35,951 bases of DNA from Nanobdellota archaeon (GTDB lineage: Archaea; Nanobdellota; Nanobdellia; Woesearchaeales; GCA-2686295): NCBI GenBank assembly GCA_018819065.1, contig JAHJQL010000017.1, forward strand, positions 1-35,951, in the 5' to 3' direction. Under the pieces are notes generated by a model, which made no database searches, was not told where the DNA came from, and saw only the letters and a list, made by a program, of their open reading frames with translations. This document shows, piece by piece, positions 22,123 to 32,911 of this stretch. A program made the translations under genes and the position numbers. Every line of letters starts with the position of its first letter. Position 1 is the first letter of the stretch.

Positions 22123-23424
22123 TCAAGGCTTCCATCTAAGCATAGTTCTTGGAAATGGTATTGCATCTTTAATGTTGTCAAGGCCGCACAACCACGCAAC
22201 AACTCGTTCTACGCCAACACCGTATCCAGAGTGAGGAACTGAACCATATTTTCTTAAATCAAAGTACCAGTCATAGTTCTCAACGCTTTCGCCTTGTTTT
22301 CTTAATTCATCAGTCATCTCTTTGACATCTGTGCTTCTCTGGCTTCCACCAATTATCTCACCATACCCTTCAGGAGCTAGCATGTCAAAGCAAAGTGCTT
22401 CATCAGGATTTTTTGGGTCTTTTGGCTTGTAGAAAGCCATGACTTCTTTTGGATAATGCGTAACGACTACTGGTGTATTAAAGTGCTTCATCAATTCATC
22501 CTCTTCAATTGTTCGAAGATCTTTTCCAAAAGATATGTTTATCTTAGATTTTTCTTTTAATATCTTTAACGCTTCTCGATACTTCATGGTTGGCCAATCT
22601 TTGTTTGCAATTTCTAAGAGCTTTTGTGAGTCACGACCAAGAAGCTTTAAATCTTCTATTCTCTCTTCACAAACTTTCTTCATGCAGTACTTAATCTCTT
22701 TCTTAGCAAACTCAGTTACATCTTTTAAGTCAAACCATGCAGCTTCCATTTCAGCCATCCAAAACTCTGAGAGGTGCCTTGAAGTCTTAGACTTTTCAGC
22801 CCTAAAAGTTGGGCCCATATTGTAAATCTTTTCAAGAGCAAACACACCTGCTTCTGCGTATAACTGCCAGCTTTGGGAGAGATAAGTCTTTTCCTTGTAA
22901 TATTTTACTTCAAAAAGCGTACTTCCACCTTCGCACTGACTTGGTTGGAGAATTGGAGCGTCAAAGCGGTAGAAACCTTCATTCCTGAAGAACTCATCTC
23001 TTGCCTGAATATATGTGCTCCTTACTTTGAGTATTGCAGTCATCTTTCGACTTCTAAGCCATAAGTGGCGCTTGTCAAGGAGAAATTCAGGACTTTGGTC
23101 CTTTGTAATTGGAAAAGTATCAGACGCACCTATTATCTTAAATTCCTTAACTGATAGTTCATAGCCTGTTGGTGCACGCTCATCCTTCTTTATCGTACCA
23201 GTAATCTCCATGGATGCTTCGATTTGCACACTAACAGCTTCTTGAAATTTATCATCAGAAAAATCATCTTTTTTTATTACGCACTGCAAGATGTTTGAGC
23301 TATCCCTTAAGACTACAAATTTTATATTATTTGAACCACGCTCACGATAAACCCAACCTCTGATGGAGACTTCTCCGCTGCCCTTGTTCATCGCTTCCTG
23401 AATTGATATGAAATCTGTCATCAT
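22123..23424 (-). CDS. asnS: Asparaginyl-tRNA synthetase
   Basis: 433 residues from ATG 23424, with a second ATG at 23421. The N-terminal OB-fold anticodon-binding domain (about 10-110) has 'VSIRGWVYRERGSNNIKFVV'. Class II motif 2 is 'GPTFRAEKSKTSRHLSEFW', whose wording (AEKS, RHL, EFW) is that of AsnRS rather than AspRS. 'CEGGSTLFEV' and 'YLSQSWQLYAEA' are AsnRS hallmarks. Motif 3 is 'GYGVGVERVVAWLCGL', ending 'IPFPRTMLRWKP'. The OB domain rules out the truncated archaeal AsnRS-related asparagine synthetase. TATA-like TTTTTTAAAG (23442-23451, minus) is close to 25 nt upstream, suggesting a leaderless mRNA. Confidence 0.92.
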   Translation of the reverse strand: MMTDFISIQEAMNKGSGEVSIRGWVYRERGSNNIKFVVLRDSSNILQCVIKKDDFSDDKFQEAVSVQIEASMEITGTIKKDERAPTGYELSVKEFKIIGASDTFPITKDQSPEFLLDKRHLWLRSRKMTAILKVRSTYIQARDEFFRNEGFYRFDAPILQPSQCEGGSTLFEVKYYKEKTYLSQSWQLYAEAGVFALEKIYNMGPTFRAEKSKTSRHLSEFWMAEMEAAWFDLKDVTEFAKKEIKYCMKKVCEERIEDLKLLGRDSQKLLEIANKDWPTMKYREALKILKEKSKINISFGKDLRTIEEDELMKHFNTPVVVTHYPKEVMAFYKPKDPKNPDEALCFDMLAPEGYGEIIGGSQRSTDVKEMTDELRKQGESVENYDWYFDLRKYGSVPHSGYGVGVERVVAWLCGLDNIKDAIPFPRTMLRWKP

Positions 23425-23441
23425 ATAAGAAAACAAAAAGG

Positions 23442-25646: not shown

Positions 25647-26654
25647 ATGATGAGTAAACAAGAGCAGGAAATAAAACTAGATAAAATAGATAGAAAAATA
25701 CTATACGAACTTGATGTAGACTCAAGACAAACAAACTCACAAATAAGTAAAAAAGTAGGAACAAGCAAAGAAGTAGTTAATTACAGAATAAACAAACTTG
25801 AAGAAAAAGGAGTTATAATAAGATATTCAACAATAATAGATTTATTTAAAATAGGATACAAAAAATACAAAATTTACATCAAACTAAGAGGTGCAAGCAA
25901 AGAAAAAAAAGAAGAAATAGGAAAATATTTTTTTGAAAACAAAAATACTGAATGGGTCATAATAGGCTCGGGGAGATGGGAAGTTATTGCAAACTATTTC
26001 TCAAGAAACGAGCAAGAATTTGATGATGAAGTACAAGAGTTTATGAACAAATATCATGAATACATACAAGAAAAAGCAACAGTAACAACATTACAAATAT
26101 CACACGCAACAAGAGAATACCTAGGAGAAAAAAAATCTCCTAAGAAAGAATATATAGAATACAACATCGAACGAAGCGCAGAGTCAATTGACGAAACAGA
26201 CAAACAAATATTACACACAATAGCAAACAATGCAAGAATGTCAATAATAGAAATTGCAAAACTAGCAAAGACGACTGCGAGAATAGTACAATACAGACTA
26301 AAAGAAATGAAAAGAAAAAAAATAATTTTGGCATACAAAGTGACAATAAATCCCGCCAAAATTGGAAAAATGTTATGTAAAGCTTGTTTTTACCTCGGGG
26401 CAGCCGATAGAAAAAGAATAAAAGAATTTATGAAATATCTACACAACATAGAAGAAGGAATATGGCCACAAAAAATACTTGGGCCATGGGATGTTGAACT
26501 AGATATGGAAGTATCAAGCTATGATCGATTCAATGAAGTAATGATGGACATAAAAGAACAATTTGGAGATATCATAATAAATGATGAGTTCACAATAGTA
26601 TCAAAAGAGTACAAACTTGATTTTTACCCGGGCTGCTTAAGAGAAATCAAATAA
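25647..26654 (+). CDS. Tandem Lrp/AsnC-type transcriptional regulator
   Basis: 335 residues made of two Lrp-like halves. Half one has an HTH 'LDKIDRKILYELDVDSRQTN' to 'SKEVVNYRINKLEEKGVI' (about 9-60) and an alpha/beta region to about 160. Half two repeats it: 'IDETDKQILHTIANNARMSI' to 'TARIVQYRLKEMKRKKII' (about 177-230), followed by a second ligand-domain-like stretch. Ordinary Lrp proteins are about 150 residues with one HTH, so this is a fused duplication. It would present two HTHs per chain. Its head-to-head position with the radical SAM gene suggests that gene is its main target (inference). The convergent gap to aspS is 35 nt. Confidence 0.85.
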   Translation: MMSKQEQEIKLDKIDRKILYELDVDSRQTNSQISKKVGTSKEVVNYRINKLEEKGVIIRYSTIIDLFKIGYKKYKIYIKLRGASKEKKEEIGKYFFENKNTEWVIIGSGRWEVIANYFSRNEQEFDDEVQEFMNKYHEYIQEKATVTTLQISHATREYLGEKKSPKKEYIEYNIERSAESIDETDKQILHTIANNARMSIIEIAKLAKTTARIVQYRLKEMKRKKIILAYKVTINPAKIGKMLCKACFYLGAADRKRIKEFMKYLHNIEEGIWPQKILGPWDVELDMEVSSYDRFNEVMMDIKEQFGDIIINDEFTIVSKEYKLDFYPGCLREIK

Positions 26655-26689: not shown

Positions 26690-28444
26690 TTATTTCTTCT
26701 TTTTTAGATCTATGTGAAGCTCTTTTAATTGCAGAGTTGAGATTTCTGCAGGACTGCCATCCATTGGACACTCTGCGTTTTTGTTCTTTGGAAAGGCAAT
26801 GACTTCTCTTATATCATTTGTTCCAACCATTAAAGCAACGCTTCTGTCAAGTCCAAGCCCCATTCCTCCGTGAGGTGGACCTCCATACTTGTAAGCGTCA
26901 AGTAAAAACCCAAATTTTTCATGAGCTTCTTTTTTATCAAGTCCGATAAATTTCATGATTCTTTCCTGCACTGAAGGGATGTTTACACGAATAGAGCCTG
27001 AGCCAAGTTCAACTCCATTTAAGGTCAAGTCCCAAAGATCGCCAATAACGTCTCCAGGTCTCTTCTCAAAGTTATCTATGAACTCTGGTTTTGGCATTGA
27101 AAACATGTGGTGTTCTGGCTCCCATTTACTCTCATCTTCGTTCCATGCAAATAGTGGAAAGTCTTTAACCCATGAAAACTTAAACTCTGCAGGATTATAC
27201 AGTTTTAAATCATCTGCAAGCTGCAGCCTAAGCCTTGAAAGTATGTAATTGCACTTCTTTGGCTTATCTGCAATAAATATCAAAATTGATCCTGGCTTTG
27301 CATCAACTTTTTTTATTAATTCTTTTTGAAGCTCTTTTGAGAAGAACTTTGCAATGTTTGACTCAAGACCATTCTTTGTCACTTTCATCCATGCAGTTCC
27401 TCTTGCACCGTTTTTCTGACAAATATCTGCGTATTTGTCAAGTTCATTTCTTGAAAAGTCTTTTTTTGGATTTATGCATTTTATGATGCCTCCATTCTTA
27501 TGAACATCTTTAAACACTTGAAAGTCTGACTTAACAACAATATCAGTAACATCATGTAAAAATAGTTCAAATCTTATGTCTGGCTTGTCAATTCCATACT
27601 TACCCATTGATTCTGCATAAGTAAATACTGGGAAATCAGCTAACTTCACACCTAAGACTTTCTTAAAAATATGCTTGTATAATCCTTCAACAAACTCTCT
27701 TATGTCATCAGACGTGACAAAACTCATCTCAAGGTCCATCTGAGTGTGCTCTGGCTGCCTGTCAGTTCTTAAGTCTTCATCCCTAAGACAGATTGCTACT
27801 TGATAATACCTGTCAAAGCCTGCAATCATTAGTATCTGCTTGTAAAGCTGTGGGCTTTGTGGAAGCGCGTAAAACTTTCCAGGATTAACTCTTGAAGGAA
27901 CAACATAATCTCTTGCACCTTCAGGCGTTGATTTCACAAGCATTGGAGTTTGGATGTCAATGAACCCATTAGCGCTGAAATACTCTCTTGCAGCAACCAA
28001 GAAGTCATGCCTTAGTTTAAGATTTTTTTGCATGGTTGGTCTTCTTAGGTCAAGATATCTGTATTTTAGTCTTGCATCTTCTCCTGCAACCTTTCGATCA
28101 TCAATTTCTATTGGAGGAGTTTCTGACTTGTTTAGAATTTTAAGTTCATCAACGAGAACTTCTATTTCTCCTGTTAAAAGTTTAGGGTTGATTAGTCCTT
28201 CTCCTCGAAAGCGAACAATTCCCTTTACCTGCAAGACATCTTCTCTGCTTAATCCTTCGGCAATTTTGTGAACATTTTTATTATGAGATGGATCAAAGAC
28301 AACTTGTGTCAAACCATAGCGATCTCTTAAGTCTATGAATATTACTCCGCCATGGTCTCTTCTTGCATTATTCCAGCCGCACAGAGTTACTTTCTTCTTC
28401 ACAGCACTTTTTCTTAACTCTCCACATGTGTGTGTTCTCAGCAT
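26690..28444 (-). CDS. aspS: Aspartyl-tRNA synthetase, bacterial type with GAD insertion
   Basis: 584 residues, the bacterial length; archaeal AspRS is about 430. The N-terminal OB domain has 'GWNNARRDHGGVIFIDLRD'. Catalytic motifs are 'ALPQSPQLYKQILMIAGFDR', motif 2 'LRDEDLRTDRQPEHTQMDLE', and motif 3 'GGPPHGGMGLGLDRSVAL', ending 'IREVIAFPKNKNAECPMDG'. The stretch about 285-410 between motifs 2 and 3 fits the GAD domain. His in RRDHGG has been linked in bacterial AspRS to relaxed tRNA discrimination (Leu in discriminating forms), so this enzyme may charge tRNA-Asn too (inference, from memory). SD AAAGGTGA precedes the ATG. A bacterial-type enzyme in an archaeal setting points to transfer. 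Confidence 0.93.
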   Translation of the reverse strand: MLRTHTCGELRKSAVKKKVTLCGWNNARRDHGGVIFIDLRDRYGLTQVVFDPSHNKNVHKIAEGLSREDVLQVKGIVRFRGEGLINPKLLTGEIEVLVDELKILNKSETPPIEIDDRKVAGEDARLKYRYLDLRRPTMQKNLKLRHDFLVAAREYFSANGFIDIQTPMLVKSTPEGARDYVVPSRVNPGKFYALPQSPQLYKQILMIAGFDRYYQVAICLRDEDLRTDRQPEHTQMDLEMSFVTSDDIREFVEGLYKHIFKKVLGVKLADFPVFTYAESMGKYGIDKPDIRFELFLHDVTDIVVKSDFQVFKDVHKNGGIIKCINPKKDFSRNELDKYADICQKNGARGTAWMKVTKNGLESNIAKFFSKELQKELIKKVDAKPGSILIFIADKPKKCNYILSRLRLQLADDLKLYNPAEFKFSWVKDFPLFAWNEDESKWEPEHHMFSMPKPEFIDNFEKRPGDVIGDLWDLTLNGVELGSGSIRVNIPSVQERIMKFIGLDKKEAHEKFGFLLDAYKYGGPPHGGMGLGLDRSVALMVGTNDIREVIAFPKNKNAECPMDGSPAEISTLQLKELHIDLKKKK

Positions 28445-28477
28445 TTTTTCACCTTTTGTCGTTTTATGTTTTGTTTT

Positions 28478-28490
28478 TATTTAATATTTT
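28478..28490 (-). promoter_or_regulatory. AT-rich promoter candidate close to aspS
   Basis: AAAATATTAAATA on the minus strand, about 40 nt before the aspS ATG. It is weaker than the TTTATATAT element farther upstream, so aspS may have two promoters or only the distal one. Confidence 0.3.
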
Positions 28491-28620
28491 TCCTTTTAGA
28501 GCTCTTTCTAGTGTTTTTAACAGCAGTTTAGAATAAAACTGCAACACTTAATTATCATTATTTGTGTTATTATCTAGAGAGAACTCGTTGCAAAATCCAG
28601 TCAAGGATTGTTCATGCATA
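28490..28620 (-). ncRNA. Candidate structured RNA or long leader between idi and aspS
   Basis: A strong minus-strand TATA box (28641-28650) predicts a start near 28620, about 175 nt before aspS, in a window where most leaders are near zero. The predicted RNA has a short hairpin (28594-28598/28605-28609) and a 13-bp stem pairing 28574-28586 with 28499-28511, with one mismatch and one wobble. Inside the stem is a perfect 7-bp hairpin (28523-28529/28536-28542). An AACAC block (28543-28547, plus strand) can pair with GTGTT on either side (28511-28515 or 28564-28568). I recognise no known family, and C/D box motifs are not convincing. It could be an independent small RNA or an aspS leader. Confidence 0.4.
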
Positions 28621-28640
28621 GGTAAAGAGAAGAATAAATA

Positions 28641-28650
28641 ATATATAAAG
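28641..28650 (-). promoter_or_regulatory. Strong TATA box without an adjacent ORF
   Basis: CTTTATATAT on the minus strand, just downstream of the idi stop. It is as good as the best gene promoters here, yet the nearest start codon is about 200 nt away (aspS). Confidence 0.55.
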
Positions 28651-28664
28651 TTTTGTTTATTGTT

Positions 28665-29168
28665 TTATTTATGCAGTTTTTTTAGTGCCATCTTAAACCA
28701 CGAAGTGTAATCATCAGGGTTTTTTAATATGTCTTTTTTCAGGTCAGAAATGGATATCAACTTATAATCCTCAACTTCTTGCAAATTTATGTTTGGTGTT
28801 TTGTCTGAGAAACCTACAAAAACATGGTCGAGTTCATTTTCAGTCAAACCATTGTCAAATTTCGCTTTGTATAAAAAACTAAATTTTTCTTTTAGCTCAC
28901 AGTCAAATCCCATCTCTTCTTTTAATCTTCTGTGAATGGCATCTTTTAACTCCTCACCTGGTCTTGGATGACTACAACAAGTGTTAGTCCATAATCCTCC
29001 ACAGTGATACTTTGACTTTTCTCTTTGCTGTAGTAATAATTCTCCTTTTGAGTTATACACAAATATTGAGAATGCACGATGAAGCTTTCTTTTTATGTGT
29101 GCATCCATTTTTTCTTCTATTCCAACTTCTTTGTCGTTTTCATCTACGAGTATAACATATTCAACCAC
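28665..29168 (-). CDS. idi: Isopentenyl-diphosphate delta-isomerase, type I
   Basis: 167 residues, Nudix-fold type I IDI. 'WTNTCCSHPRPGEELKDAIH' contains the catalytic Cys65 and His67; 'RRLKEEMGFDC' is the Nudix-like helix. 'GLTENELDHVFVGF' has the metal and catalytic Glu residues (110, 112). 'KLHRAFSIFVYNSKGELLLQ' is also typical. It interconverts IPP and DMAPP, feeding archaeal lipid synthesis with divalent metal as cofactor. Many archaea use the unrelated FMN-dependent type II enzyme instead. The start is GTG 29168 with SD GAGAGG (29178-29183). It is last in the gat cluster, 33 nt after gatA. Confidence 0.93.
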   Translation of the reverse strand: MVEYVILVDENDKEVGIEEKMDAHIKRKLHRAFSIFVYNSKGELLLQQREKSKYHCGGLWTNTCCSHPRPGEELKDAIHRRLKEEMGFDCELKEKFSFLYKAKFDNGLTENELDHVFVGFSDKTPNINLQEVEDYKLISISDLKKDILKNPDDYTSWFKMALKKLHK

Positions 29169-29201: not shown

Positions 29202-30557
29202 TCACAAAGAATTTAAGACTTCAAACAATAATTTTTCCTTAAAAGCTGGAGCCATGACTTGTAAGCCCACAGGCACCCCATCAATTGTTCCTGCAGGTAT
29301 CACTCCTGCACATATGCCTGCTAGATTTGCAGGAATGGTAAATGCGTCATAAGCGTACATATCTTTAAAGGATACTTTCTCACCTATTTTGTGAGGTAGC
29401 TTTGGAGTTACAGGAGTTATAATCACATCCACTTTTTTGAATGCTTCTTCTAAGTCTTTTGCTATCTCTTTTTTTGCAGCCAAGCTTTTTCGATAATATT
29501 GACCACCATACTCTGCACGAGATATTTCTCTTCCGCCAAGAATCCTTCTTAACACTTCTTCACCACAAGAGTTTTCTATCTTCTCTCCATATCTTCTCCC
29601 GTCAAACTTCCTTGTTCCTGAGAAGAATTCAACATATACAAGCGGATAGTATGTTTGAACTGCTAATTTTACGTGTTTCAAATCAACATTTAATATGTTT
29701 GAGTTAGTCTTCTTAATTAATTCAGCTACTTTCTTCATTATCAATTCATAGATTCTCTTATCTACACATAAGCTTTCAAAGTCTTTGCTCAGTCCAACTT
29801 TAAGATTTTTTATGTTCTTAAAACTCGAGTACGAATCCGTTTTTTCTTCATAAGTTGTTGAGTCTTTATCTGATTTTCCAGCGATTACTTCAAGCATTAA
29901 TGCAGCTCCATAAACATCCTTGCAAAGAGGGCCTATCTGATCTAAGCTCATGCTTAAATCTACAAGACCGTATCTTGAAACTCGTCCGTAACTTGGTTTT
30001 ATTCCAACAACTCCACAATGAGATGCAGGGTTTCTAATGCTTCCACCAGTATCTGTTCCTAGCGCAATATCACAAAATCCCGCTGCAACAGCAGCTGTGC
30101 TTCCGCTGCTTGAACCACCAGGAATCCTTCCTTTAGCCACTGGGTTTTGTATTAGACCATAAGCACTTGTTTCACCTGAGCTTCCGCATGCAAACTCATC
30201 CATGTTAGTCATACCTATAATTATCCCATCTTCCTCTTTTATCTTTTTTATAACGTCTGCATCATAAGTTCCCACATACTTTTTCAGTGTTCTTGAGGCA
30301 CAGGTAATAGGCATTCCCTTAACATTTATGCATGATTTTACAGCTACTGCAAGACCTGCAAGCCTACCAACTTTTTTGTTCTCGCGTATTTTCTTATCAA
30401 CAATTTTTGCCTGTTCCAAAGCTTCTTTTTCTGCTACATAGATAAAAGAATTTATTGATTTATCTTCTTTTTTTATCTTTTCAAGGAATGATTTTATGTT
30501 ATCAACTGCTAAAAGCTTTCTTTCCCTTATTAATAACTGTTTTTCTTTAATGTTCAT
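29202..30557 (-). CDS. gatA: Aspartyl/glutamyl-tRNA amidotransferase subunit A
   Basis: 451 residues with the amidase signature. The Ser-cisSer-Lys triad is visible: Lys74 in 'LAVAVKSCINVKG', Ser149 in 'RIPGGSSSGSTAAVAAG', and nucleophile Ser173 in 'GTDTGGSIRNPASHCGVVG'. GatA frees ammonia from glutamine for transamidation of Asp-tRNA-Asn or Glu-tRNA-Gln in the GatCAB complex. The length is slightly under the bacterial 480-490. It lies 23 nt after mazG, separated from gatB and gatC by two small hydrolase genes. Confidence 0.93.
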   Translation of the reverse strand: MNIKEKQLLIRERKLLAVDNIKSFLEKIKKEDKSINSFIYVAEKEALEQAKIVDKKIRENKKVGRLAGLAVAVKSCINVKGMPITCASRTLKKYVGTYDADVIKKIKEEDGIIIGMTNMDEFACGSSGETSAYGLIQNPVAKGRIPGGSSSGSTAAVAAGFCDIALGTDTGGSIRNPASHCGVVGIKPSYGRVSRYGLVDLSMSLDQIGPLCKDVYGAALMLEVIAGKSDKDSTTYEEKTDSYSSFKNIKNLKVGLSKDFESLCVDKRIYELIMKKVAELIKKTNSNILNVDLKHVKLAVQTYYPLVYVEFFSGTRKFDGRRYGEKIENSCGEEVLRRILGGREISRAEYGGQYYRKSLAAKKEIAKDLEEAFKKVDVIITPVTPKLPHKIGEKVSFKDMYAYDAFTIPANLAGICAGVIPAGTIDGVPVGLQVMAPAFKEKLLFEVLNSL

Positions 30558-30580
30558 TTTCTTATTTGTTCCTTATTTCT

Positions 30581-30946
30581 CTATTCTTTTTCTTTTTTCT
30601 TTATCTCGTTCCAAAGTTTTGATTCTTCTTCTTTGGACAATTTTTTTCCTGTGAATATCCATGGTTTTCTTCTCTTTAATTTCTCCATTGCATCGTTTAT
30701 CACTTCTTTTCCTGAGAATAGTTTTTGTTCTTCAGCAATAACTATCATAAACAGTAAGTCCCAGAGTGCATCTCCAAGCTCTTCTCTTAAATTCTTAACA
30801 TCATCATTTTCTAGTGCTTGCTTTATTTCAAGCACTTCTTTGTACAACTCTTCTGCTCGTTCTTTCATGGAGTGTTCTCTTGACCACTCAGAGTTTTTCC
30901 TATCAATCTTTAGCGACTCGTATAATTCTTGAAATTTTTCTTTCAT
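30581..30946 (-). CDS. mazG: MazG-like NTP pyrophosphohydrolase
   Basis: 121 residues, all-alpha. 'AEELYKEVLEIKQALE' and 'LREELGDALWDLLFMIVIAE' carry the MazG metal-binding pattern (Glu37/Glu40, Glu56/Asp59). 'LKRRKPWIFTGKKLS' matches the MazG C-terminal basic segment, and the Trp residues near the end resemble bacterial MazG C-domains. The family hydrolyses (d)NTPs to NMP and PPi and is thought to clear aberrant nucleotides. The ATG overlaps the Nudix stop as ATGA. It is a single-domain version. Confidence 0.88.
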   Translation of the reverse strand: MKEKFQELYESLKIDRKNSEWSREHSMKERAEELYKEVLEIKQALENDDVKNLREELGDALWDLLFMIVIAEEQKLFSGKEVINDAMEKLKRRKPWIFTGKKLSKEEESKLWNEIKKKEKE

Positions 30947-31323
30947 TTTATTTTAACCTTTAAGTTTGGAGCAATATCTTTTTCTTTTTTAATGTCAACA
31001 TATTTTATGTCATCAAAAACGTCTGGTTCAGTTACTCTTGGCTCTCCGTTTATTATTCTTGCTTTGAATTGATGGCTTTTAACGGTTTTTCCCAAAAACT
31101 CGTAAATGATTGGCTTTAACTCTTCAATTATTTTAACATCACAACCAGTCTCTTCTTTTGTTTCTCTAATCGCTGCTTGTATTGGTGTCTCACCAAGGTC
31201 AATCTTTCCTCCAGGCAGCTCCCAGTAGTTATGTTTAATTCTATGCAGCAAAAGAGTTTTGCCGTCTTTTTCTATTCTGCAACCAGCCAATTCTTTCATC
31301 TTCACTAATTCATTCATATTCAC
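30943..31323 (-). CDS. Nudix hydrolase
   Basis: 126 residues. The Nudix box is complete: Gly39, Glu45, Arg53-Glu54, Glu57-Glu58 and Gly60, in 'GGKIDLGETPIQAAIRETKE' then 'ETGC'. The preceding 'LLLHRIKHNYWELPGG' is typical of MutT/ADP-ribose-type members. The substrate is not predictable. The start is GTG 31323 forming GTGA with the gatC stop; ATG 31317 is an alternative. It sits between gatC and mazG in one operon. Confidence 0.9.
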   Translation of the reverse strand: MNMNELVKMKELAGCRIEKDGKTLLLHRIKHNYWELPGGKIDLGETPIQAAIRETKEETGCDVKIIEELKPIIYEFLGKTVKSHQFKARIINGEPRVTEPDVFDDIKYVDIKKEKDIAPNLKVKIK

Positions 31324-31550
31324 CAGCTCTTCTTCTCTGCAACTATGAATCCTTTTCTCTCTTTTGGAGCATTTTTAAACATTCTTTCCCTAAATTCGCT
31401 TTCGCAATCATTTTCAAAAGATTCTCTTGTCTGAAATGTTCGCTTCGTACCAAATTCTTTTGTAAGCTGTATCTTATCAAGCTCTTTTATGAACTCATCC
31501 ATTATCTTCTTTGCTTCTTTTTCTATCTTTTCTTGATCCATTTTATTCAT
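31320..31550 (-). CDS. gatC: Probable GatC subunit (short form)
   Basis: 76 residues. The C-terminal 'FRERMFKNAPKERKGFIVAE' segment matches the GatC tail, where NAP followed by a charged stretch, Gly and a hydrophobic 'FxV' is conserved. The N-terminal helix 'IEKEAKKIMDEFIKELDKI' fits the GatC helical region. The protein is shorter than bacterial GatC (about 95), and similarity is weak elsewhere, so the call leans on the tail and on position between gatB and gatA. The ATG overlaps the gatB stop as ATGA. Confidence 0.75.
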   Translation of the reverse strand: MNKMDQEKIEKEAKKIMDEFIKELDKIQLTKEFGTKRTFQTRESFENDCESEFRERMFKNAPKERKGFIVAEKKSW

Positions 31551-32911
31551 TTTATCAGTTCTTTAATTATTCTGTTGACTTTGTCAGGAGTGGCTTTTCC
31601 TTTTGTTTTAGCCATGACTTGTCCAACGACTGCGTTTAAGGCTTTTTCATTTCCTTTCTTGAAATCATCCACGGCTGCTTGTTTTTCTTTTATGGCTTCT
31701 TGACAAAGCTTTTTTAGTTCCAAATCATCAGAAACAGACTCTAAACTGTGTTGTTTGACATATTCTTTGATGTTAAAATTCTCCTTGATAAACTTTGATA
31801 ACAATTCTTTTAAAACTACTGGCGACACCTCTTTTTTTTCGAGAAGCAAAAACCAATCTATCAAATAACTAACGTCTATGTTAACATCATCATAATCCAT
31901 GTTATTATCATTTATCGCTGCAATAACATCTCTTCTAAACCATCTGCTTGCAAAGACTGGATTAATTTCTTTTATCACTTTCTCAAATAACTCTGCAAGG
32001 ACTAGTTCTGAGCTTATAGTTTTTGCATCAACTTCATCAATTCCCAAACAAAGGTATTTCTTGTATTTTTCAGATGGTTTTTCAGGAAGCTTTGAAGCTA
32101 TTTCTTTTACAAGTCCTTCATCAACCTTTATCACAGGCAAGTCAGGCTCTGGAATGAACATGTAGTCTTGAGCAGTCTCTTTACTTCTCATAAATATGGT
32201 TTCTCCGCTATTATCATCATAGGTTCTTGTCTGCTGAATGTTTTTGTGTTCTCTTCTTTGTCTTTGCTCCTCGTAGTTTATCGCTTTTACAATGTTGCTT
32301 ATCGAGTTGACGTTCTTAACCTCTGTTCGCACATATCTTGGAGCTATCGAAACGTTAACATCGGATTTTATCCCTGCTTTTTTATCAACTGCCCTTATAT
32401 ATGAAAGAGTTGTAAGAAGGGTTTTTAACCAATGTTTAACCTCTTCTGCTGATTTAAAGTCTGGCTTTGTGACTATTTCAACAAGTGGAAATCCTGAACG
32501 GTTATAATCAACATTGCCAGTCAAGGGGTCCCACCGAGCAGGATCTTCCTCTAAATGTACTTCTTCAATCCCTATTCCTAAAAAATCTCCATTCACCCCT
32601 ACTGGAAGGCCAAAGCTCCCACTCATAGTTCTCTGATAGCCTGAAGGCAAGTCTGGCCAAGAATAATGTTTTCTTTGAAATAACAACTTATTGTTTATCT
32701 TGCATCCAAGCATCAGACCAACGGCTATTATTTTTTCCACAGCCTCCTTGTTTGGAAGCATTGGCTTTGAACCTGGTTGAGAAGTACAAATAGGACAGAT
32801 ATTGGTGTTTGGCTCAGCTTCATGAACTATCTTACAATTGCAGAACAACTTTTTAGTGTTTGTCATGTTGAGATACCCGTGTATCTCCAAACCAATCTTT
32901 AAATCCCCCAT
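31547..32911 (-). CDS. gatB: Aspartyl/glutamyl-tRNA amidotransferase subunit B
   Basis: 454 residues. 'KIGLEIHGYLNMTNTKKLFC' and 'FQRKHYSWPDLPSGYQRTMS' are classic GatB, with a zinc knuckle from LFCNC and ICPIC. The kinase-like cradle has 'GIGIEEVHLEEDPARW' and 'VDYNRSGFPLVEIVTKPDF'. The C-terminal tail (about 300-454) has the helical and YqeY-like domains ('NAVVGQVMAKTKGKATPDKV'), binding tRNA. GatB phosphorylates and amidates the mischarged aminoacyl-tRNA. TATA ATTATATAAA (32936-32945, minus) about 29 nt upstream predicts a nearly leaderless mRNA. First gene of the gatB-gatC-Nudix-mazG-gatA-idi cluster. Confidence 0.94.
   Translation of the reverse strand: MGDLKIGLEIHGYLNMTNTKKLFCNCKIVHEAEPNTNICPICTSQPGSKPMLPNKEAVEKIIAVGLMLGCKINNKLLFQRKHYSWPDLPSGYQRTMSGSFGLPVGVNGDFLGIGIEEVHLEEDPARWDPLTGNVDYNRSGFPLVEIVTKPDFKSAEEVKHWLKTLLTTLSYIRAVDKKAGIKSDVNVSIAPRYVRTEVKNVNSISNIVKAINYEEQRQRREHKNIQQTRTYDDNSGETIFMRSKETAQDYMFIPEPDLPVIKVDEGLVKEIASKLPEKPSEKYKKYLCLGIDEVDAKTISSELVLAELFEKVIKEINPVFASRWFRRDVIAAINDNNMDYDDVNIDVSYLIDWFLLLEKKEVSPVVLKELLSKFIKENFNIKEYVKQHSLESVSDDLELKKLCQEAIKEKQAAVDDFKKGNEKALNAVVGQVMAKTKGKATPDKVNRIIKELIK

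Follow-up and report, generated by a model that had tools for sequence, protein, structure and literature searches.

A probable leader-peptide switch sensing tRNA charging before an archaeal aspS gene, with cognate leaders before other synthetase genes in related archaea

Ribosome-mediated attenuation is a textbook bacterial mechanism, and the T-box riboswitches of Firmicutes, which are marked by a specifier loop and a T-box sequence, likewise sense tRNA charging for synthetase genes. Among the bacterial leader-peptide attenuators that precede synthetase genes, PMC1262725 describes those of pheST in γ-proteobacteria and of trpS and leuS in Streptomyces. For archaea, according to a 2021 paper on archaeal transcription, no mechanism of either transcription attenuation or antitermination was known (PMC8448881). 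A search of the open-access literature, with most subscription papers and all bioRxiv preprints outside its scope, likewise found leader-peptide attenuation reported for no archaeon. A form of promoter-proximal elongation control involving aCPSF1/FttA has been described in this domain, and the passages of PMC8448881 that describe it mention no leader peptides; premature termination near the promoter is an output that it might share with the element considered here.

In the window, a stretch of archaeal DNA 35,951 nucleotides in length, the region upstream of aspS contains features of bacterial ribosome-mediated attenuators (PMC1262725): a short ORF with a cognate codon run and a synthetase gene downstream, with alternative pairings that are predicted to depend on ribosome position. 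Unlike the bacterial attenuators, this element occurs in an archaeal host, has an archaeal TATA promoter and an apparently leaderless ORF, places strand 1 of its long-range stem in the codons just before the run, and has no intrinsic terminator that we could find before aspS. It differs from T-box riboswitches in carrying an ORF with a codon run instead of a specifier loop and a T-box sequence, and the window yields no Rfam matches at gathering thresholds. Sequence and computation show an ORF that ends in an Asp/Asn run and keeps its place before aspS, folds that change with the position of the ribosome, and cognate leaders in relatives; together these observations lead us to conclude that the element is probably a cis-acting, leader-peptide attenuator-like switch that senses tRNA charging and controls aspS. 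Its parts are as follows.

28650-28641, minus strand: TATA box CTTTATATAT of the leader transcript, 21 nt from box to leader ATG
28548..28619, minus strand: leader ORF MHEQSLTGFCNEFSLDNNTNNDN, 23 codons plus TAA (28550-28548), with homologs in genomes G007 and G072
28589..28618, minus strand: 5' hairpin; its UGCA...UGCA closing pairs are kept in G007, and its inner stem AAUCC/GGAUU is not fully conserved
28586-28574, minus strand: strand 1 of the long-range stem, GAGTTCTCTCTAG, within the ORF (codons 12-16)
28551..28574, minus strand: Asp/Asn codon run GAT AAT AAC ACA AAT AAT GAT AAT (two Asp, five Asn, one Thr), preceding the stop codon
28568-28564, minus strand: first AACAC, able to pair with GTGTT
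28547-28543, minus strand: GTGTT, the switchable strand, directly after the leader stop codon
28523..28542, minus strand: hairpin GCAGTTT-TATTCT-AAACTGC, 7 bp (arms 28542-28536 and 28529-28523)
28515-28511, minus strand: second AACAC, the predicted partner of GTGTT while codons 15-20 are read
28511-28499, minus strand: strand 4, CTAGAAAGAGCTC, which pairs with strand 1
28454-28449, minus strand: AGGTGA, Shine-Dalgarno-like site of aspS, after an A-rich spacer
26690..28444, minus strand: aspS, encoding a bacterial-type aspartyl-tRNA synthetase with a GAD domain (NF001750, 793 bits; TIGR00459, 734 bits; PF02938 GAD)

An earlier note on this DNA had described a TATA box firing into about 175 non-coding bases. 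The box is present where it was placed, but the bases behind it are not all non-coding, because the stretch holds the 23-codon ORF (28619-28548), which had been overlooked in the gap upstream of aspS. By the usual archaeal distance from TATA box to start site, and given the 21-nt spacing, the transcript would begin at about ATG 28619, and the ORF is thus a candidate leaderless ORF. Asp and Asn make up seven of its ten final residues, a proportion equalled in none of 5000 dinucleotide shuffles of the window's own intergenic sequence.

Asn codons outnumber Asp codons in the run, though the gene downstream is aspS. A simple explanation for this mixture, that the genome lacks AsnRS, was rejected, as asnS is encoded within the window at 22123-23436. 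The AspRS may be a non-discriminating enzyme that also supplies tRNA-Asn, a possibility raised by the adjoining gatA, gatC-like and gatB genes (29202-32911), which lie on one side of aspS with asnS on the other. Both routes to Asn-tRNA are represented by genes in this one neighbourhood. Also beside aspS, at 25647-26654, is a gene for a 335-amino-acid protein with two Lrp/AsnC-type helix-turn-helix stretches (PF13404), a tandem Lrp-like regulator.

The leader strand is predicted to fold with an energy of -38.1 kcal/mol, compared to -20.8 +/- 3.3 for shuffled sequences (z -5.18; 0 of 200 as good). The 13-bp closing stem noted earlier lies where it was claimed to be, but consists of 12 standard pairs, including one G-U, plus one C-A mismatch. 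The perfect 7-bp hairpin is there as described, as are the switchable pairings, with two possible AACAC partners for the one GTGTT. When the window's own stem, which contains a mismatch, was subjected to a test for uninterrupted stems, 62 of 300 shuffles were as good, which is not significant.

The 5' strand of this stem resides inside the ORF and the 3' strand downstream of it. Stalling on the Asp/Asn codons would therefore leave the 5' strand hidden under the ribosome. We computed the consequences by setting a ribosome on the leader codon by codon and folding only the RNA ahead of it. Strands 1 and 4 are paired when the RNA carries no ribosome or has one at the start. A ribosome on codons 15-20 covers both strand 1 and the first AACAC; the second AACAC then becomes the partner of GTGTT, so that the 7-bp hairpin is extended and strand 4 is left single. 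A ribosome at the stop codon would have strand 1 behind it, where, judging from the distances, this strand could pair again. The leader of G007 gives alternative folds that are similar, but not identical, to those of the window.

The sequence of events that we infer, from translation of the leader through stalling to the response of aspS and its output step, is as follows. Transcription would start at or next to ATG 28619 to yield a leaderless mRNA, and a ribosome would translate the 23-codon leader. When charged tRNA-Asp or tRNA-Asn is scarce, the ribosome would stall on the Asp/Asn codons and cover strand 1 (28586-28574), GTGTT would pair with the second AACAC, strand 4 would stay single, and aspS would be expressed. 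When charged tRNA is plentiful, the ribosome would reach the stop codon and leave, strand 1 would pair with strand 4, and expression of aspS would fall.

A similar leader precedes aspS in two relatives. An AspRS-like match is found in 97 of 99 genomes near the window's. The leader itself is rare and occurs in 3 of the 352 genomes of the order. In G007, which belongs to the same family, an AspRS of 80% identity is preceded by the leader MQNLNIFGYCNEFFLVDNSNNNDNY and a stop codon. In G072, from another family, the leader MSTSKIFKACSLFSLEFNINNNDN and its stop codon lie directly before aspS (E 0.006). This last match came from a covariance model built from the elements of the window's genome and G007 and searched in all 352 genomes. 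Eight weaker covariance hits (G151, G286, G033, G045, G303, G030, G095 and G162; E 0.03-0.96) were dropped as chance because none of their loci, L114-L121, was seen before aspS, as judged from neighbouring ORFs and, for L115, also by sequence. A second match of the intergenic DNA in G000 (L002) was likewise dropped; it is on the opposite strand, immediately behind a gene that is DNA-ligase-like.

In all three genomes the leader ATG is found at -173 to -183 from aspS, and C, F and L residues are conserved among the peptides. A profile built from the three sequences returns E values below 1e-12 for the window's genome, G007 and G072, which are its own training set, and nothing better than E 0.001 elsewhere among the 352 genomes. 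We tried 117 aspS loci and obtained the upstream region for 113; within these, at least six D/N in the last ten residues are present only in the window's genome, G007 and G072 (four loci, G007 being represented twice). The congeners G002-G005 have an AspRS match without its middle part and no such leader upstream. The part in which they do not align with the window's AspRS is the one that holds the GAD domain.

Compensatory changes, whose absence the earlier note had named as a refutation, are weakly positive in these homologs. Between the window and G007 the long stem exhibits one both-sided change and one repaired mismatch, and covariation is thin. G072 has an 11- to 13-bp stem of different composition at the corresponding place.

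These comparisons bear on the proposal that the locus encodes a new small RNA, which they do not favour: the element has the same place before aspS in three genomes, adjoining the gene in 3 of the 3 that have it, and an ORF whose peptide has conserved features makes up its 5' half. No terminator-like site was found in 28300-28900. The other earlier proposal, an aspS leader sensing aminoacylation or aspartate, finds support through the leader codon run as far as aminoacylation is concerned, but not as an RNA that binds tRNA or aspartate directly. The strong fold, and the long stem in all three homologs, would be explained by a structured non-coding RNA, either a leader or a small RNA, that has AspRS, tRNA-Asp or aspartate as its direct ligand and contains the ORF only incidentally. 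We nevertheless find it improbable: the window has no Rfam match at gathering thresholds, the ORF of G072 retains N/D-rich C-terminal residues even as its stem differs in sequence, and direct binding does not predict cognate leaders before other synthetase genes.

Such leaders do exist. When 33 synthetase loci of G000, G007 and G072 were scored for cognate residues in the last 12 positions, at least six were found for aspS in all three genomes and, in G007 only, for thrS (MKKTNATQTKNFLNTTTTTTTV), ileS (MKAKYANKKMFITCITSIISIIM) and leuS (MILNLTVHKLVLLLLI); the window's genome has no cognate leader before the other synthetase genes looked at. The thrS gene of G001 carries the Thr-run leader MKRTKTTKAKILTSTTTTTTTTETTN, and 6 of 40 further thrS regions of relatives have Thr runs as well (G167, G168, G187, G201, G069 and G016). 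For ileS, leuS and valS we chose 22 genomes that had thrS leaders, belonged to families with them, or were close relatives, and the fractions obtained there are therefore no estimates of prevalence. Poly-Ile leaders stand before ileS in G004 (MRQTIIANISIIIIS) and G143 (MKSNLYLLPFNISCIISFISIIIII), among others, and poly-Leu leaders before leuS, for example MKLNGLDLLLLLVL in G069. Poly-Val leaders precede valS in G051 (MRLAKDHVTAVGVVVVA) and G162 (MNIILKSVFVVVVN). Among 30 Trp and Tyr loci, a cognate run was found at one, the tyrS of G004, where the Tyr-run leader MNKQTSNQSRDFSSLQTGFYYYQ precedes a tRNA gene and then tyrS. This intervening gene (locus L323; Rfam RF00005, 47.5 bits) looks by eye like an intron-containing tRNA-Tyr.

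The match between leader and gene was examined by shuffling gene labels among 259 regions (97 aspS, 70 thrS, 23 ileS, 23 leuS, 20 valS and 26 others). Five or more of the last ten residues were cognate in 30 of the 259, compared to a mean of 6.0 and a maximum of 14 for shuffled labels, with 0 of 5000 shuffles as high; related genomes are not independent, and some were picked since leaders had already been seen there. The positives comprise nine thrS, eight ileS, seven leuS, four aspS (D+N) and two valS regions, and two of the 30 are doubtful (L067, MNNINNNIK, and L265). With a threshold of at least six the count is 17, compared to a mean of 3.75 and a maximum of 10 (0 of 5000). Left out of the 259 were duplicate aspS loci (L003, L004, L073 and L125, replaced by L092, L093 and L113), the named loci L073-L087, aspS upstream regions shorter than 120 nt, Trp/Tyr loci, L185 (upstream masked), and loci with an ORF start within 60 nt of the locus edge.

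Chance deserves consideration here, for AT-rich DNA readily yields Asn codons and pairing A/T-rich strands. AAT and GAT codons are easily made in such DNA, and the short N-rich ORF MNNINNNIK of another genome is an example. Chance is, however, a very unlikely explanation given that no shuffle reached seven D/N in ten, that three genomes have a similar peptide at the same position, and that label shuffling never reproduced the cognate match across genes.

Alternatively, the leader might be translated while its peptide acts by sequence, through nascent-chain arrest or as a small protein, rather than by the counting of cognate codons. The conserved C, F and L residues of the aspS leaders agree with this, as do those thrS leaders that have only one or two Thr and end in a conserved IFLLxT(R/C). 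Yet the C-terminal run varies with the synthetase (D/N, T, I, L, V or Y), as an arrest peptide need not, and we give this alternative little credence. The thrS leaders with the IFLLxT(R/C) ending form a second type, located at about -153 to -190 in families f7, f80, f45 and f75 (L218, L222, L224, L229, L217, L210 and L248), and could be arrest-type peptides.

Upstream of the leaders, 29 of 35 ATGs have a TATA-like box between -36 and -20, compared to 7.9 expected from shuffles, a few of these leaders having been listed with the TATA flag in view. Instead of a TATA box, GAGGTGG lies before the ATG in the thrS leader of G007 and AGGTGG in that of G001.

A stem between the codon segment and a downstream strand beats shuffles at p<=0.05 in 2 of 3 aspS, 6 of 10 ileS and 1 of 1 tyrS leaders (16 bp in the last), and in none of the 9 leuS, 9 thrS or 4 valS leaders. 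We consequently rejected a universal strand 1/strand 4 architecture, its support being limited to aspS, ileS and tyrS. A hairpin across the stop codon was rejected as a common feature too, since p<0.02 is reached in few leaders (3 of 9 thrS, 1 of 3 aspS, 1 of 10 ileS and 1 of 9 leuS). The ileS leaders (n=8) have one clearly covarying column, with C-G, G-C and T-A pairs; when strand 4 was re-dealt among genomes, 185 of 20,000 trials matched the true pairing, the automatic choice of strand being suboptimal for two leaders.

The output step of bacterial attenuators, an intrinsic terminator, is not what we find here: no terminator hairpin with a T run lies between the leader and aspS (0 terminator-like sites in 28300-28900), and across the set of leaders T runs follow the stop codon in 12 of 36, no enrichment over the 9.2 that shuffles give on average. 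We favour premature transcription termination, perhaps dependent on FttA/aCPSF1 acting on ribosome-free RNA, and give it about an even chance; mRNA decay and translation initiation are the alternative outputs. A tRNA-charging sensor that works through either of these, with transcription termination uninvolved, would be a variant of our best explanation that differs in the output step, and we view it as a tentative possibility. It accords with strand 4 having no T run after it, with the lack of a terminator-like site, and with the Shine-Dalgarno-like site at 28454-28449. However, about 106 nt separate the leader stop from the aspS ATG, which exceeds the 30-40 nt range of coupling that PMC12548453 reports from measurements in Haloferax volcanii and E. 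coli, and about 45 nt lie between the end of strand 4 and the Shine-Dalgarno-like site.

Taken beyond aspS, these observations make it likely that Woesearchaeota-type archaea have a general system for controlling aminoacyl-tRNA synthetase genes through leader peptides, in which codon runs would read cognate charging, mostly on leaderless mRNAs, with an output that does without the bacterial intrinsic terminator. If this is true, ribosome-mediated attenuation would be described in archaea for the first time. A set of such leaders, matched to six kinds of synthetase gene, would mean that archaea evolved or acquired attenuation logic with a eukaryote-like polymerase and TATA promoters. Natural leader elements would also make archaeal transcription-translation coupling testable, and cognate leaders would offer a simple means of annotating regulation in DPANN genomes without genetics.

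Two further features of these regions were observed. Mini-ORFs similar to one another, MIDTKNKLFLDLQNSGDKF (L170, serS of G000) and MIDIKKQSFLNLQNNR (L186, leuS of G007), each closed by a stop codon, abut or overlap the start of the synthetase gene. Finally, 13 of 36 leaders (shuffle mean 0.5, maximum 4) carry the motif TCATTG (or TCAGTGG), beginning 1-6 nt past their stop codon; all 13 (L237, L243, L245, L250, L259, L303, L304, L305, L306, L322, L293, L302 and L353) belong to thrS, leuS or valS and come from families f10 and f63.
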